From Sphingomonas sp. So64.6b (GTDB lineage: Bacteria > Pseudomonadota > Alphaproteobacteria > Sphingomonadales > Sphingomonadaceae), in contig NZ_CP048817.1 of assembly GCF_014171475.1 (NCBI RefSeq), positions 1,798,001 through 1,862,000 of the forward strand: a stretch of 64,000 nt of DNA, given 5' to 3'. Positions 11,030-16,083 of the stretch are shown piece after piece; position 1 is the first letter of the stretch, and each line of letters begins with the position of its first letter. Both the position numbers and the translations under genes were made by a program. The notes beneath the pieces were generated by a model. That model saw nothing but the letters and a program-made list of their open reading frames with translations. It did not search any database and had not been told where the DNA came from.

Positions 11030-12085
11030 CTAATCGTCGCGACTCTGTCCCGCGGAAATCAGGCCATGGCGCTTGAGTGCATGGCGAAGCTGATCGTAAC
11101 TGAGGCCCAGCCCTTCGGCCGTCGCACGCTGATTGAAGCGGTGTTCGGCCAAAGCCTTGGCGAGCAGATCGCGTTCGAAGCGGGCGATGCGCGATTTGAA
11201 ATCGGATCCGCTCTCGGCGGCAGCCCCGCCGACGGTCACCGGCGACAAATCACTTGCGTGATCCTCAGCCACATGAGCCGGTGCGGCGACCGGCCGGGCA
11301 ACGCTCGCCGGTTGATAAGGCGAATGGAACGGGTCGAATTCGATCGTCTCGATCGCGCCGCCCAGTTCCCAGCGGTAGACCGCGCGTTCGACCACGTTGC
11401 GTAGTTCGCGCACATTGCCGGGCCATTGATAATCGACCAGCGCGTCGATCGCTTGTGGACCGAAGCCGGACCATTCATCGCGGCCCATCTCCGCCGCCAT
11501 GCGCCGGCCGAAATGATCCGCCAGCACCATCACGTCGCCCGGCCGCGCGCGGAGCGGCGGCAGCGTCACCACCTCAAAGCTCAGCCGATCGAGCAGATCA
11601 GCACGGAACTGGTGGCGCTCGACCTTTTCCGGCAGATGTTCATTGGTCGCCGCGACGATGCGAACGTCGACACGCAACGGCCGTGAAGACCCGATCCGGG
11701 TGATTTCGCCATATTCGACTGCACGCAACAAACGTTCCTGTGCGCCCATCGACAAGGTGCCGAGCTCGTCAAGGAACAAGGTGCCGCCATCGGCTTCCTC
11801 GAAGCGTCCCACCCGCGCCTTGGTCGCACCGGTGAAGGCACCGGCCTCATGTCCGAACAATTCGGCTTCGATCAGCGTCTCGGGCAGCGCGGCACAATTC
11901 ATGATCACGAGCGGCTGATCCCAGCGCGGGCTCAATCGGTGAAGGCGTTCGGCGACGAGTTCCTTGCCAGTGCCGCGTTCGCCGATCACCAGCACCGGCC
12001 GGTCCAGTGCCGCGGCCCGGCTGGCGCGCTCCAGCACATCGAGAAACTCGGTCGACTGGCCAATGACCTGTGTGGTGCGATCCAT
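11030..12085 (-). CDS. pspF: sigma-54-dependent activator PspF
   Basis: A 351-residue bacterial enhancer-binding protein without an N-terminal receiver domain, as in PspF. The AAA+ domain has Walker A GERGTGKE, the sigma-54-contacting GAFTGA loop, Walker B GGTLFLDELG and the arginine-finger region FRADLLDRLSFEVV. After the WPGNVRELRN sensor the linker leads to a C-terminal Fis-type helix-turn-helix (FNQRATAEGLGLSYDQLRHA). The ATG at 12085 begins MDRTTQVIGQS, where the family starts. It is divergent from the psp operon and its sigma-54 promoter, which it should activate while PspA inhibits it. Confidence 0.93.
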   Translation of the reverse strand: MDRTTQVIGQSTEFLDVLERASRAAALDRPVLVIGERGTGKELVAERLHRLSPRWDQPLVIMNCAALPETLIEAELFGHEAGAFTGATKARVGRFEEADGGTLFLDELGTLSMGAQERLLRAVEYGEITRIGSSRPLRVDVRIVAATNEHLPEKVERHQFRADLLDRLSFEVVTLPPLRARPGDVMVLADHFGRRMAAEMGRDEWSGFGPQAIDALVDYQWPGNVRELRNVVERAVYRWELGGAIETIEFDPFHSPYQPASVARPVAAPAHVAEDHASDLSPVTVGGAAAESGSDFKSRIARFERDLLAKALAEHRFNQRATAEGLGLSYDQLRHALKRHGLISAGQSRDD

Positions 12086-12183: not shown

Positions 12184-12201
12184 TTGGCACGGGTCCTGCA
12201 A
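12184..12201 (+). promoter_or_regulatory. sigma-54 promoter of the psp operon
   Basis: TTGGCACGGGTCCTGCAA matches the sigma-54 consensus, with GG at 12186-12187 and GC at 12198-12199 at the required ten-base spacing and one mismatch in the -12 element. It points toward the leader peptide and pspA, and lies about 100 bp from the divergent pspF start. PspF binding sites would be expected between 12086 and 12160. Confidence 0.88.
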
Positions 12202-12271: not shown

Positions 12272-12421
12272 GTGAACAACGACTATAACCCACGCAACGC
12301 CCGCCACACCGTCGCAGCGATCGTCTGCACCATCGTGTGCAGCACGGTGTTCGTACTCGGCGCCGTCGCACCGGCCCAGGCGTCTGCCGCTCCCACTCAC
12401 CAGATCGCCGCTCACGCATAA
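12272..12421 (+). CDS. small exported or membrane peptide ahead of pspA
   Basis: A 49-residue reading frame with GTG start and AGGGAA about ten bases upstream. After NNDYNPRNARH comes one hydrophobic stretch (TVAAIVCTIVCSTVFVLGAV) and an Ala-rich end with a possible signal-peptidase site after AQASA. It lies between the sigma-54 promoter and pspA, so it is the first gene of the operon if translated. No homology is recognised; it may be a regulatory or stress peptide. A fortuitous frame cannot be excluded. Confidence 0.55.
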   Translation: MNNDYNPRNARHTVAAIVCTIVCSTVFVLGAVAPAQASAAPTHQIAAHA

Positions 12422-12536: not shown

Positions 12537-13205
12537 ATGGGCATTTTCTCCCGCACCCGCGACATCATCGCCGCGAACTTCACCGATCTGCTCGACAAGG
12601 CGGAAGACCCGTCGAAGATGATCCGCATGATCATCCTCGAAATGGAGGAAACCCTGGTCGAGGTTCGCGCCTCCGCCGCGCGCACCATCGCTGATCAGAA
12701 GGAAATGCGCCGTCACATCTCCAAGCTGGACACGCTGCAGGAAAGCTGGACCGAAAAGGCCGAACTCGCGCTGTCGAAGGACCGTGAGGATCTAGCCAAG
12801 GCCGCTTTGGTCGAGCGCCAGAAGGCCGCCGATATGGCCGACCAGCTGCGTGCGGAGATCGGCGTGCTCGACGATGCGTTGCGCGCTTCGGAAGAGGACA
12901 TCGCCAAGCTGCAGAACAAGCTGCGCGAGGCGCGGACGCGGCAGAATTCGATCGTCACCCGGCTGGAAAGCGCCAACAACCGCTTCAAGCTGCGCGACAT
13001 GTATGCCGGACCCAAGATCCAGGACGCGTTCTCGCGCTTCGAGGTGATGGAACGCCGGGTCGATTTCGCCGAGGGCCGGGCCGACGCGCTAAGCCTGGGT
13101 GGACCGCAGAAGAGCCTCGAAGAGGAACTCGCCGAGCTGAAGTCTGCCGAGAAGGTCGATGCCGATCTCGCCGCGCTGAAGGCACGCCTGGGCAAGGACA
13201 ATTGA
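12537..13205 (+). CDS. pspA: phage shock protein A
   Basis: A 222-residue PspA/IM30 protein. The amphipathic N-terminus MGIFSRTRDIIAANFTDLLD carries the membrane-binding helix and the AEDPSKMIR motif is typical. The remainder is almost entirely helical coiled coil, with FSRFEVMERRVDFAEGRADA near the end. PspA is an ESCRT-III relative that both represses PspF and forms scaffolds on damaged inner membrane. AGGAG lies upstream of the ATG. pspB follows after one base. Confidence 0.96.
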   Translation: MGIFSRTRDIIAANFTDLLDKAEDPSKMIRMIILEMEETLVEVRASAARTIADQKEMRRHISKLDTLQESWTEKAELALSKDREDLAKAALVERQKAADMADQLRAEIGVLDDALRASEEDIAKLQNKLREARTRQNSIVTRLESANNRFKLRDMYAGPKIQDAFSRFEVMERRVDFAEGRADALSLGGPQKSLEEELAELKSAEKVDADLAALKARLGKDN

Positions 13206-13206
13206 G

Positions 13207-13473
13207 ATGGAATTTCTGGTTGGCATCATCGCGATCGTTTCGATCTTCATCGGGCTTCCCTGGTTGATCTTCCACTATGTCACAAAGTGGAAAACGGCAC
13301 CCAGGATTACCCAGGAGGACGAGAAGCTGCTCGACGAGATGCATATCCTCGCCCGCCGTCTCGAAGACCGGCTCAACACCGTCGAACGCATCGTCGCCGC
13401 CGACAACCCCGACTGGAAGCCCGGCCTGCCGAGCGCATCCAGCTCCGACTACGAAATCACCAGGAGGAACTGA
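13207..13473 (+). CDS. pspB: phage shock protein B
   Basis: An 88-residue protein with one N-terminal membrane helix (FLVGIIAIVSIFIGLPWLIF), a basic juxtamembrane stretch and a coiled coil, EDEKLLDEMHILARRLEDR followed by LNTVERIVAAD. This is the standard PspB layout, slightly longer than in enterobacteria (about 75). With PspC it senses envelope stress and relieves PspA inhibition of PspF. The LxxRLxxxERIV segment recurs in the downstream small proteins. Confidence 0.92.
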   Translation: MEFLVGIIAIVSIFIGLPWLIFHYVTKWKTAPRITQEDEKLLDEMHILARRLEDRLNTVERIVAADNPDWKPGLPSASSSDYEITRRN

Positions 13474-13474
13474 A

Positions 13475-13855
13475 ATGTCCGCCAGCCGCACCAAATTCTA
13501 TCTCGACAAGCAGAACCGCAAATGGCTCGGTGTCTGCTCCGGGATCGCCGACTACACCGGGGTGGACGTCACCTGGGTCCGGATCGGCACCGTCGTCCTC
13601 ACCCTTGCCGGTGGTTTCCCCTGGACGCTGATCGCTTACTGGCTCGCCGCCTGGATGGCCGATACCAAACCTTACGGCCTGTACGACACGCCGGAGGATG
13701 CGAAATTCTGGCAGGGTGTCCGATCCAACCCGAAGCGTTCGACCGCCGAAGTGCGCTCGACCTTCCGCGAGATCGACCGCCGGCTTGCCGATATCGAAAT
13801 GCACTACACCAGCCGCAACAGCCGGCTCGCCAACGAGATCGACAGCCTGCGCTGA
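13475..13855 (+). CDS. pspC: PspC-domain membrane protein with C-terminal coiled-coil module
   Basis: A 126-residue protein. A PspC domain with KWLGVCSGIADYTGVDVTWV and the following hydrophobic helix VLTLAGGFPWTLIAYWLAAW is followed by a 60-residue cytoplasmic tail. That tail ends REIDRRLADIE, then LANEIDSLR. The EIDSLR ending is shared with the small membrane proteins encoded next. The ATG at 13475 is one base after the pspB stop. Its role is membrane stress sensing with PspB. Confidence 0.92.
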   Translation: MSASRTKFYLDKQNRKWLGVCSGIADYTGVDVTWVRIGTVVLTLAGGFPWTLIAYWLAAWMADTKPYGLYDTPEDAKFWQGVRSNPKRSTAEVRSTFREIDRRLADIEMHYTSRNSRLANEIDSLR

Positions 13856-13893
13856 GACGCAGACCGATCCGCGGCTGATCAGGGAGAACGACA

Positions 13894-14193
13894 ATGAATT
13901 GGGGTGGACCTGGCTTCGTCATCGCGATCATCGCGATCTCCACCGCCGGATGGGTCATCAACAACTGGATCCGTGCCCGCCACGGCTATCCGATGGAGGA
14001 TGAATGGTCCGGCAAGAAGAGCCACCGTACCGATGTAGCGGTCGATGCCGAACGCAAGATCGGTCTGCTCTCAACCGAGAATGAGCGCCTGACCGGCCAG
14101 ATCAGCCGCCTGGAGGAACGGATCGCCGTCCTCGAACGCATCGCCACCGACCCCGCCGAGCGCACCGCTCGCGAGATCGACTCACTGCGCTGA
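13894..14193 (+). CDS. PspB-like small membrane coiled-coil protein 1
   Basis: 99 residues. An N-terminal membrane helix (GFVIAIIAISTAGWVINNWI) leads into RARHGYP and then a coiled coil: LLSTENERLTGQISRLEER, IAVLERIATD, and a terminal AREIDSLR. The order helix, RxRHGYP, coiled coil, VLERIxTD, EIDSLR is shared with the next gene, and the later part with pspB and pspC. AGGGAG precedes the ATG. Not assigned to a named family; inferred to be a PspB-derived partner in the psp response. Confidence 0.82.
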   Translation: MNWGGPGFVIAIIAISTAGWVINNWIRARHGYPMEDEWSGKKSHRTDVAVDAERKIGLLSTENERLTGQISRLEERIAVLERIATDPAERTAREIDSLR

Positions 14194-14208
14194 GATAGGA
14201 ATATAACG

Positions 14209-14538
14209 ATGAACCCGACACAATTCATACCGGTCATAAGCGCCATCGGTCCGGTCATTGCGATCGTCACGGTGTCCGGCGTAATCGGCTGGGTGATCAC
14301 CACCTGGATGCGCATCCGCCACGGCTATCCGCTCGACGGGCAATGGGGCCAGGCGATCTACCCGAAGACCGACCAGGAAGCCGCCGAACGCATCCGCCTG
14401 CTCAGCCAGGAAAATGGCCAGCTGCGCGCCGAGATCGGCTCGATCAAGGACCGGCTCGCCAATGTCGAACGGATCGTCACCGACGGCGCGCACAGCCTCG
14501 ATCGCGAGATCGAAAGCCTGCGCACCAAGCCGAACTGA
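14209..14538 (+). CDS. PspB-like small membrane coiled-coil protein 2
   Basis: 109 residues, the closest neighbour of protein 1. It has a membrane helix (IAIVTVSGVIGWVITTWMRI), the same RHGYPLDGQW after the membrane, a coiled coil LLSQENGQLRAEIGSIKDRL, then VERIVTDGAHSLDREIESLR. It lies 15 bp after protein 1. The paired similarity suggests tandem duplication. No signal peptide cleavage site is evident, so it should sit in the inner membrane with the coiled coil in the cytoplasm. Confidence 0.82.
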   Translation: MNPTQFIPVISAIGPVIAIVTVSGVIGWVITTWMRIRHGYPLDGQWGQAIYPKTDQEAAERIRLLSQENGQLRAEIGSIKDRLANVERIVTDGAHSLDREIESLRTKPN

Positions 14539-14550
14539 GGAGCAATTCCG

Positions 14551-14850
14551 ATGTCCCCCCTGCTGATCCCCATTCTTGGAATATCCTGCGGCCTGCTGGC
14601 GATCTTCGGCGGCGTCTTCATCAAACCCTGGTTCGCCTACAAGCATCGCCAGATGGAGCTCGAAGCCAAGATGATCGCCGAAAAGGCGGCACAATATGCC
14701 TCGCAGACCAGCAGCCTGGAACAGCGTGTCCGTGTGCTGGAACGCATCGTCACCGACCGCGGCATCGAACTTGCCGATGAAATCGACCGCCTGCGCGATG
14801 ACAGCGCGCCACTCAACAAACCGCGCGATGACAACGCGCCGCTCAATTGA
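14551..14850 (+). CDS. PspB-like small membrane coiled-coil protein 3
   Basis: 99 residues with a membrane helix (LLIPILGISCGLLAIFGGVF), a PWFAYKHRQMELEAKM juxtamembrane helix and the shared coiled-coil block SSLEQRVRVLERIVTDRG then LADEIDRLR. It ends in two near-identical Asp/Asn-rich repeats, DDSAPLN and DDNAPLN, which the other members lack. It sits 12 bp after protein 2 in the same operon. Confidence 0.82.
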   Translation: MSPLLIPILGISCGLLAIFGGVFIKPWFAYKHRQMELEAKMIAEKAAQYASQTSSLEQRVRVLERIVTDRGIELADEIDRLRDDSAPLNKPRDDNAPLN

Positions 14851-14875
14851 CCCCTCCCCCGAAAGGAATCACGAA

Positions 14876-14989
14876 GTGCTTATCATCTTCGCAGTGCTCG
14901 CCACCATCGCCGGCGTCGGTGTGTACTTGACCGAACGCGTCGATCGGCGGCTTCGCCGCCAGGAGCGCGAAGCCCGCAACGCCCAGTAA
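14876..14989 (+). CDS. 37-residue membrane peptide in psp operon
   Basis: A GTG-started frame of 37 residues with GAAAGGAA about nine bases upstream. It is one hydrophobic helix (LIIFAVLATIAGVGVYLT) followed by the charged tail ERVDRRLRRQEREARNAQ. It looks like a PspB-like protein reduced to the helix and a short amphipathic tail. The good ribosome binding site and operon position support it; its function is unknown. Confidence 0.65.
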   Translation: MLIIFAVLATIAGVGVYLTERVDRRLRRQEREARNAQ

Positions 14990-15028
14990 TTTCCCAACTC
15001 CAAGAACAAGAAACAAGGGAGACCTTCC

Positions 15029-15301
15029 ATGAACCCGTTCGAAATGGTCGTCGCGATCATCGTTGTCATCACGATCGGCAAAGTGCTTCAGGCACGGTTC
15101 GGCGGAAGCCATAACAGCCGTCGCGACGCCTTCCATCCGCACCGCGAAGACGCGGCGACAGAGATGGAGAACCAACGGCTGCGCGAGGAACTGAAGGCGA
15201 TGAAGGATCGCCTCGCCGTCCTCGAACGCCTCGCCACCGACAGCAACGATAGCGGCGCCCGTCTCGATCGCGAGATCGAGAAGCTCCGCGACCGCAGCTA
15301 A
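15029..15301 (+). CDS. PspB-like small membrane coiled-coil protein 4
   Basis: 90 residues with membrane helix MVVAIIVVITIGKVLQARF, a short His/Arg-rich stretch, then the coiled coil MENQRLREELKAMKDRLAVL and ERLATDSNDSGARLDREIEK ending LRDRS. It shares the VLERLATD...EIxxLR module with the other members. AAGGGAGA lies upstream of the ATG. Same operon, 39 bp after the 37-residue peptide. Confidence 0.82.
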   Translation: MNPFEMVVAIIVVITIGKVLQARFGGSHNSRRDAFHPHREDAATEMENQRLREELKAMKDRLAVLERLATDSNDSGARLDREIEKLRDRS

Positions 15302-15330
15302 ACGCAAAACCAAACCAAGGAGCAGGGATC

Positions 15331-15573
15331 ATGACCGATCCAAACTTCTATCTCACTCTATCCGCCACAGCATTGGCCGGTCTCGGCATGCTGACCCTCG
15401 CCACCCTGACCGGCTGGCGCGGCTGGCTCGCACTCAAGCAGCAGGAATTGCGAGCGAATAGCGACTTCCATCCCGCCACCCCGGTACCCAACGCCAGCGC
15501 GCGGATCGAGATCGCCGACCTGAAGGAACGCATCCGCAAGCTCGAGGCGATCGCCGCCGGCGTGGATCTCTGA
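15331..15573 (+). CDS. PspB-like small membrane coiled-coil protein 5
   Basis: 80 residues. The membrane helix is FYLTLSATALAGLGMLTLAT, followed by GWRGWLALKQQELRANSDF. A short coiled coil, RIEIADLKERIRKLEAIAAG, ends the protein. It is the most divergent member, lacking the final EIDSLR, but it keeps the layout and AAGGAGCAGG precedes the ATG. Last gene of the psp run before the repeats upstream of sufE. Confidence 0.78.
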   Translation: MTDPNFYLTLSATALAGLGMLTLATLTGWRGWLALKQQELRANSDFHPATPVPNASARIEIADLKERIRKLEAIAAGVDL

Positions 15574-15642: not shown

Positions 15643-16083
15643 ATGGCGGGCAACGAGGCTATAGCCGGCGCCATGCCCGATCTTTCCGACCTGCAAGACG
15701 AATATGGCTTTCTCGACGCGGACGACCGGTACCGTATGCTGATCGACCTGGGCCGCGAACTGGAGCCGATGCCCGAAGCGCTCAAGACCGACGCGACACT
15801 GGTGCGAGGCTGTTCCGCCTCGGTATGGGTCTATCCCACCGTCCGCGACGATGGCACGCTCCACTTCCTCGCCGATTCCAATGCCGCGATCACCAAAGGC
15901 ATCATCGCGCTGGTCTTGCTGACGGTACAGGATACCGCGCCGGCGACGATCCTTGCCACCGATATCCCGGCGGCACTCGCACCGTTCGACCTGAAGGGCC
16001 AGCTCAGTTCGAACCGGACCCAGGGAATTCCCAACATGATCGCGCTGATCGTCGAGACGGCACGGCGCTACGCCGACCGCTAA
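15643..16083 (+). CDS. sufE: SufE family cysteine-desulfurase activator
   Basis: 146 residues of the SufE fold. DLQDEYGFLDADDRYRMLID opens the conserved part, LVRGCSASVWV carries the sulfur-accepting cysteine, and GIIALVLLTVQDT with SSNRTQGIPNM follows as in the family. SufE takes persulfide sulfur from a SufS-type desulfurase. The ATG at 15643 has GAGG six bases upstream; an ATG at 15673 would also give a full SufE domain. No other suf genes are adjacent, although two desulfurase genes lie at 42.7-44.9 kb. Confidence 0.88.
   Translation: MAGNEAIAGAMPDLSDLQDEYGFLDADDRYRMLIDLGRELEPMPEALKTDATLVRGCSASVWVYPTVRDDGTLHFLADSNAAITKGIIALVLLTVQDTAPATILATDIPAALAPFDLKGQLSSNRTQGIPNMIALIVETARRYADR

Follow-up and report, generated by a model that had tools for sequence, protein, structure and literature searches.

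A 64,000-nucleotide stretch of the single-contig, 5.06-Mb genome of Sphingomonas sp. So64.6b (hereafter, the window) contains a psp operon in which pspA, pspB and pspC are followed by six small genes, X1 to X6 (13894–15573, + strand). As judged from profile comparisons, four of the encoded proteins (X1, X2, X3 and X5) end in a module with the consensus R-xxx-(L/V)ER-I-x-TD-...-L-xx-EI-xx-LR, which is kin to the C-terminal tail of PspC; arrays of this kind, with a preserved gene order, were found at every psp locus that was read in the window's family. The initial annotation had described the interval 13207–15573 as a serial expansion of PspB-like membrane coiled-coil proteins. The six genes lie within it and have the claimed sizes (99, 109, 99, 37, 90 and 80 residues); the interval also contains pspB (from 13207) and pspC (from 13475). 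Overall, our analysis confirmed what had been observed there and partly supported how it had been interpreted.

The C-terminal module and its kinship with PspC

By hydropathy, each of the six proteins has one hydrophobic segment close to its N-terminus, in agreement with the single membrane helix that had been assigned to all of them, and neighbours X1 and X2 do share RHGYP after this helix. Coiled coils had been claimed for five proteins: those of X1, X2, X3 and X5 rest on heptads and, for X2, on one AlphaFold2 model, and that of X6 was judged by eye only. The C-terminal end of X6 is helix-like, and the full module is not present in it. The features concerned are:

12537..13205, + strand, pspA (TIGR02977 275.8 bits, above cut-off)
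13207..13473, + strand, pspB (PF06667 86.7 bits, TIGR02976 82.3 bits, both above cut-off)
13475..13855, + strand, pspC (PF04024 63.1 bits, TIGR02978 117.7 bits, both above cut-off)
13730..13849, + strand, C-terminal helical tail of PspC (residues 86-125), counterpart of the module (AlphaFold2 helix; hhalign to X1, X2, X3, X5)
13894..14193, + strand, X1, 99 residues: transmembrane helix, RHGYP, leucine zipper, module (open reading frame, profiles)
14083..14190, + strand, X1 module, residues 64-99 (aligned with PspC 91-126)
14209..14538, + strand, X2, 109 residues: transmembrane helix, RHGYP, leucine zipper with invariant Asn, module (open reading frame, profiles, AlphaFold2)
14416..14523, + strand, X2 module, residues 70-105 (aligned with PspC 91-126, probability 95.5%)
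14551..14850, + strand, X3, 99 residues: transmembrane helix, coiled coil, module (open reading frame, profiles)
14686..14802, + strand, X3 module (profile alignment)
14876..14989, + strand, X4, 37 residues, GTG start: membrane helix alone, no module (open reading frame)
15029..15301, + strand, X5, 90 residues: transmembrane helix, coiled coil, module; type also present in another family of the order
15152..15289, + strand, X5 module (aligned with PspC 84-126)
15331..15573, + strand, X6, 80 residues: transmembrane helix with WxxW, C-terminal end RIEIADLKERIRKLEAIAAGVDL

The C-terminus of X3 also holds a near-exact small repeat, RDDSAPLN and RDDNAPLN (14794–14847, + strand), which is missing from relatives such as those of loci L066 and L067.

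The modules were compared by running hhalign on family alignments from 61 loci (46–69 sequences per group); the control was a set of 25 column shuffles per pair, in which heptad positions were preserved. Scores among the four X groups fell between 81 and 191 (X1–X2, 190.7; X1–X5, 119.0; X1–X3, 95.9; X2–X5, 95.8; X3–X5, 88.1; X2–X3, 81.1), with probabilities of at least 98.4% and z from 19 to 37. No shuffle came near, the shuffle maxima being only 20.7–29.1, and the sharing of the module thus exceeds chance. On these profiles (score about 190), X1 and X2 are clearly full-length paralogues, in line with the tandem duplication of single-pass proteins that had been put forward.

The same comparison linked the module to the tail of PspC, where it had also been placed: the scores were 50.9 for X2, 40.1 for X5, 39.6 for X1 and 31.1 for X3, none of which was reached by any of the 25 shuffles (z 7–15). 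Scores against PspB were 32.8 (X2), 32.3 (X3), 24.7 (X1) and 24.1 (X5); again no shuffle reached them, at z of 2.4–4.8, and the same held for PspB against PspC (21.8; 0/25). The claim that the module also forms part of PspB is therefore the weakest link: the first half of the module resembles PspB, and the second half is not present there. PspB was weighed as the source of the module and is retained only as a possible ancestor of that first half. X6 was likewise weighed as a full copy. It aligned with X5 (40.3) and X3 (34.8), in both cases above all 25 shuffles, but not clearly with X1 or X2, for each of which one shuffle in 25 reached the score; at most, it has the first half of the module.

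A module profile made without PspB or PspC was then searched over the whole genome that contains the window. X2, X3, X1 and X5 ranked highest (E 2e-20 to 5e-17), PspC was fifth (E 0.004), an unrelated site came next (E 0.0097), and PspB (E 0.14) and X6 (E 0.35) took seventh and tenth place; seven of the 12 matches at E ≤ 10 lay within the psp operon. When 30 module sequences were compared with 18,950 NCBIfam models, the top two models at E ≤ 0.1 were TIGR02978 (PspC), matched by 18, and TIGR02976 (PspB), matched by 12. Taken together, these comparisons tie the module firmly to the C-terminal tail of PspC and weakly to PspB. Because the kinship lies mainly with the PspC tail, the label "PspB-like" is only partly right: it fits the layout of the proteins and the first half of the module.

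The five conserved points of the module can be written as a spacing pattern, R-x4-E-x4-[SDE]-x4-hydrophobic-x6-L. It occurs in 93/93 X2, 143/152 X3, 66/73 X1 and 38/112 X5 proteins (83/112 if an indel is allowed), and in the PspC proteins of the window's family (85/106) and of other families (26/31). None was found in PspB (0/139), X6 (0/89) or the unassigned array proteins (0/14). Among other genes of the loci, 0/508 had the pattern in the last 70 residues and 4/508 anywhere in the protein, and shuffled tails gave at most two matches per group. The pattern was drawn from alignments of the very families counted; the tail of E. coli PspC, which was used in no building step and matches exactly, is therefore the sole held-out case. 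An earlier, stricter pattern had been found in 235/318 array proteins but in 0/61 PspC proteins and was abandoned.

Distribution and operon organization

The window's family (f1), which we take to be Sphingomonadaceae, was sampled with 113 genomes, 110 of which have PspB. We read 106 of these 110 loci (those of G128, G152, G164 and G174 were left out), assigning array genes by our own gene calls and the best group profile. All 106 loci carry between one and eight array genes, distributed as follows (loci in brackets): 1 (1), 2 (3), 3 (8), 4 (20), 5 (43), 6 (25), 7 (4), 8 (2). X5 is present in 101 loci, X3 in 99, X2 in 91, X6 in 89 and X1 in 68. X6 is the last array gene in all 89 loci that have it, and X5 is second-last in 87.

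PspB was found in 182 of the 196 genomes of the order and relatives of X2 (E ≤ 0.001) in 107, all but one of them in the window's family. Something similar to the array followed pspC in six of the 33 psp loci read from other families, and nothing profile-recognisable did so in the other 27. Three of the four loci of family f8 (L098, L099, L100) have, after pspABC, a second, tail-less PspC and then an X5-like protein comprising a membrane segment and a tail; it looks as though the PspC domain and its tail had been divided between two genes. In two of three loci of family f58 (L107, L108), pspC is followed by two genes of 73–78 residues; both products have a membrane helix, which bears a PspC-like tail in one and a PspB-like tail in the other. 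A protein of the latter type is encoded in one of five loci of family f5. Across the class, eight of 289 genomes had a match to the module profile at E ≤ 0.001. Half of these eight belong to the window's family; of the other four, G376 has a good pair and three have weak matches (E 5e-4 to 9e-4). In G376, the X5-like protein (L078 1495–1725, − strand) adjoins a second small membrane coiled-coil protein (L078 1243–1437, − strand), and the pair lies beside a dut-like gene (named by eye), apart from that genome's psp operon.

Judging from this cross-family and class-wide distribution, the earliest array gene was probably X5-like, and the expansion is probably a trait of the window's family. The tail found in f58 is closer to PspC tails (mean 0.31–0.46) than are the X modules (0.19–0.26), and tails therefore appear to have been joined to single anchors on more than one occasion. 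We also considered, and set aside, the idea that the tails had recently been copied from the PspC of the same genome, there being no sign of this within the window's family. X2 was also matched by 5123 protein clusters at E ≤ 0.001, a number that may include paralogues such as X1; the best 120 of these are mostly without a name, and the named ones are mainly "hypothetical protein".

Judged by spacing, the stretch from pspA to X6 is supported as one operon. The intergenic gaps from pspA through X6 are 1–39 nucleotides, and across the 61 loci 317 of 318 gaps measure at most 100 nucleotides (median 18). A sigma-54-like site precedes pspA in 45/61 loci and lies between pspA and the end of the array in 2/61. 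In a weak test, no terminator-like site was found on the + strand between 12100 and 16200; the four such sites in that interval are all on the − strand, a number not above that of shuffles.

The closest of 80 named loci is that of Sphingomonas sp. ERG5 (91% identity). Against this strain, ratios of nonsynonymous to synonymous substitution rates (dN/dS) were 0.08 (X1), 0.25 (X2), 0.49 (X3), 0.24 (X4), 0.29 (X5) and 0.15 (X6), compared with 0.26 for pspB, 0.23 for pspC and 0.11 for U0, an upstream reading frame listed below. By this measure the array genes are under purifying selection, with values near those of pspB and pspC. The 80 named loci are those returned for X6, and near-identical records may be missing among them; nearly all belong to Sphingomonas or to named relatives, for example Stakelama, Hephaestia or Sphingobium. 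Relatives of X4 occur in 24/80 and those of U0 in 27/80. The features that flank the operon genes are:

11030..12085, − strand, pspF, sigma-54 activator (open reading frame, start codon inferred; tblastn matches beside pspA in related loci)
12185..12199, + strand, sigma-54 −24/−12 promoter TGGCACGGGTCCTGC (pattern match)
12272..12421, + strand, U0, 49-residue open reading frame with one hydrophobic segment, in the interval between promoter and pspA (open reading frame)
15643-16083, + strand, SufE-like gene, 3' of the array (relative in 72/80 named loci)

The gene at 15643 is presumably SufE-like. U0 occupies the interval between the sigma-54 site and pspA, a position held in Zymomonas by ZMO1062, called "putative pspD" in the relevant passage of PMC8645129. 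That passage has ZMO1062, the gene between pspF and pspA, upregulated in Zymomonas mobilis with pspA, pspB and pspC in xylose medium; a passage of PMC3495753 reports the latter three up under ethanol, and a table of temperature-responsive genes in PMC8237431 includes ZMO1062 and pspA with the same sign as heat-shock genes.

Zipper register and charge

AlphaFold2 modelled X2 from 60 sequences with a predicted local distance difference test score (pLDDT) of 81.5 and a predicted template modelling score (pTM) of 0.35, placing the membrane helix at residues 3–38 and a second helix, which spans the module, at 55–106. The model of PspC (51 sequences; pLDDT 81.3, pTM 0.56) has a terminal helix at 86–125. 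A Foldseek comparison of the X2 model with solved structures returned no matches at E ≤ 10, and the solved-structure search found no PspC relative at E ≤ 1.

From −20 to +8 relative to the module Arg, the a and d positions of X2 are 99–100% hydrophobic apart from an Asn, which occupies one a position in X2 (93/93) and in X1 (90% of 73). Past +8, in the second half of the module, the heptad register of X2 breaks. A buried Asn at an a position marks parallel dimeric zippers, and the sequences of X1 and X2, with regular a/d heptads and Asn at a, are of the kind expected of parallel dimeric leucine zippers.

In one heptad, the groups differ in charge: g is acidic and e basic in X2 and X5, whereas in X1, X3 and PspC e is acidic and g is either basic or neutral. 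Register and charge classes were derived from X2 and used for all groups, and the counts that follow are non-independent across genomes, which share ancestry. If the coils are parallel, self-pairs would show g–e' attraction in 85/91 (X2–X2), 95/101 (X5–X5), 70/100 (PspC–PspC), 24/68 (X1–X1) and 26/95 (X3–X3) cases, the remainder of the last two being mostly neutral. Cross-pairs would attract in 84/87 (X2–X5), 53/64 (X1–PspC), 68/89 (X3–PspC) and 32/62 (X1–X3, with 30 neutral) and repel in 83/86 (X2–PspC), 90/95 (X5–PspC), 78/84 (X2–X3), 84/91 (X3–X5), 47/57 (X1–X2) and 53/64 (X1–X5). PspB fits this register in only 32/106 loci and has no clear pairing preference. Two of 38 (i, i+5) position pairs carry opposite charges in at least three of the five groups, and both are g–e'. 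One of the two is set by the anchor pattern. The other is the swap described here (four of five groups, the X3 g position being mostly neutral); of these two pairs, it alone occurs in both polarities.

For parallel coils, the swap would predict two pairing sets, {PspC, X1, X3} and {X2, X5}; in antiparallel coils, the prediction would be the opposite. One could go further and suppose a combinatorial zipper code, in which the tail copies have diverged into these two mutually exclusive sets and a single membrane-stress operon makes two or more distinct PspA-docking assemblies, whose membrane anchors differ. We regard this extension as rather unlikely.

Proposed function and comparison with known Psp systems

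What might such an array do? We propose, with about even confidence for and against, that the array is a series of single-pass proteins of the inner membrane, that most of these bear a copied PspC tail, each on a different anchor, and that they act as extra docking sites. The proposal is made because PspC tails bind PspA in both E. coli and Yersinia: in the passages concerned, E. coli PspC leucine-zipper mutants lose PspA binding and retain PspB binding (PMC3068692), and in Yersinia, during the on state, the C-terminal cytoplasmic domain of PspC binds PspA and sets PspF free (PMC5596341). The array proteins would be made on PspF release. Their tails would face the cytoplasm, a side assigned because positive residues follow the membrane helix (for E. 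coli, PMC3068692 assigns the tail of PspC to the periplasm or to two topologies), and would offer additional membrane docking sites for PspA, for PspB/PspC, or for both. Several anchors, responsive to different membrane states, could then drive PspA recruitment and PspF release, which would become graded. X6, which ends the array, would probably be an accessory partner.

Several observations weigh against this proposal. No match to the sigma-54 pattern used was found in 16/61 loci. Compared with the more distant relatives L166, L169 and L183, dN/dS values for the X genes lie between 0.12 and 1.01, and the highest is that of X2 in L166, where the best match is probably the X1 paralogue. X6 appears unrelated to PspB or PspC, as 17/25 and 19/25 shuffles, respectively, reach its scores. 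The X modules are no closer to the PspC tail of their own genome than to those of other genomes (mean differences −0.012 to +0.026), and there is therefore no sign of close co-evolution with PspC. Finally, X2 and X5 are predicted to avoid PspC if the coils are parallel; the notion that all copies mimic PspC is thus too simple.

This lack of co-variation with the PspC tail would suit an effector scaffold, i.e., a psp-made coiled-coil mesh that strengthens the membrane and has no part in PspA/PspF signalling, the tail kinship reflecting ancestry. The conserved Asn in the zippers of X1 and X2 suits self-pairing, and parts of PMC3467454 report that Yersinia PspB/PspC protect from secretins independently of PspA. 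All five conserved points of the PspC tail are nevertheless kept, beyond the needs of a generic coil, and we consider the scaffold possible, on the improbable side. The extra tails might instead be dampers, competing with PspC for PspA or PspB and thereby setting the threshold or the speed of shut-off. The position of the array in the same operon, downstream of pspC, would allow such negative feedback, but the sign of binding cannot be told from sequence, and we think this role quite improbable. Convergence on a coiled-coil sequence, to which the weak solved-structure matches of the X1/X2 profile (best E 0.015, mostly unrelated coiled coils and zippers) and the weak single NCBIfam matches (best 2.9e-5, full-length X1/X2) might point, is very improbable and largely refuted for X1, X2, X3 and X5, as heptad-preserving shuffles never reach the scores among them or against PspC and the spacing pattern is so rare in other genes of the loci (0/508 in the last 70 residues, 4 anywhere).

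How PspB/PspC sense membrane damage and hand over PspA is a long-standing open question. A family with multiplied docking tails offers natural variants in which anchor, tail and pair are separately removable, and in which sensing (membrane part) could be separated from docking (tail). The array suggests that the stress response has not one docking point but many, perhaps with some selectivity, and docking tails would hint at what a large group of unassigned proteins might do.

The initial annotation went too far in presenting a multi-subunit sensor that arose by duplication as something new: passages of Ravi et al. 2024 (PMC11237479) describe "PspB duplicates" in the psp operon as well as fusions of PspC with a divergent PspB at the C-terminus. 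The likeness lies in the extra PspB-like genes of a pspFABC operon and in the PspC tail, taken there as a divergent PspB. The difference is that those passages give one example accession, AOL22920.1, and that they, section 17 included, hold no array, copy range, distribution or module analysis. No word starting with "sphingo" occurs in the main text of a 2022 survey (PMC9239133), and in the open-licence papers searched we found no description of the array.

No protein of the array exceeds the cut-off of any curated family. For PspB, X3 scores 13.2 bits against a Pfam cut-off of 25.6 and X1 9.3 against an NCBIfam cut-off of 51.7; X2, X4, X5 and X6 have no match to PF06667 or TIGR02976. PF04024 (the PspC domain) has no match in X1–X6, and TIGR02978 gives at most 17.9 of 104 bits. 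PspD and PspG of E. coli and PspM of mycobacteria are likewise small accessory proteins of psp regulons, X6 matching PspM at only 14.4 of 80 bits. PspB is similar in size to X1, X2, X3 and X5 and, like them, has one N-terminal membrane helix followed by a coiled coil, a layout that X6 shares by hydropathy and reading alone and that X4 lacks for want of a coil. It resembles the first half of the module (RL..VE.I) and is without the second (0/139). The array proteins differ from PspC in having a single membrane helix and no PspC domain with its two membrane segments. In the AlphaFold2 models, however, PspC and X2 both have a long helix after the membrane part, and the PspC tail has the same five conserved points as the array modules, at equal spacing and in the same C-terminal position.

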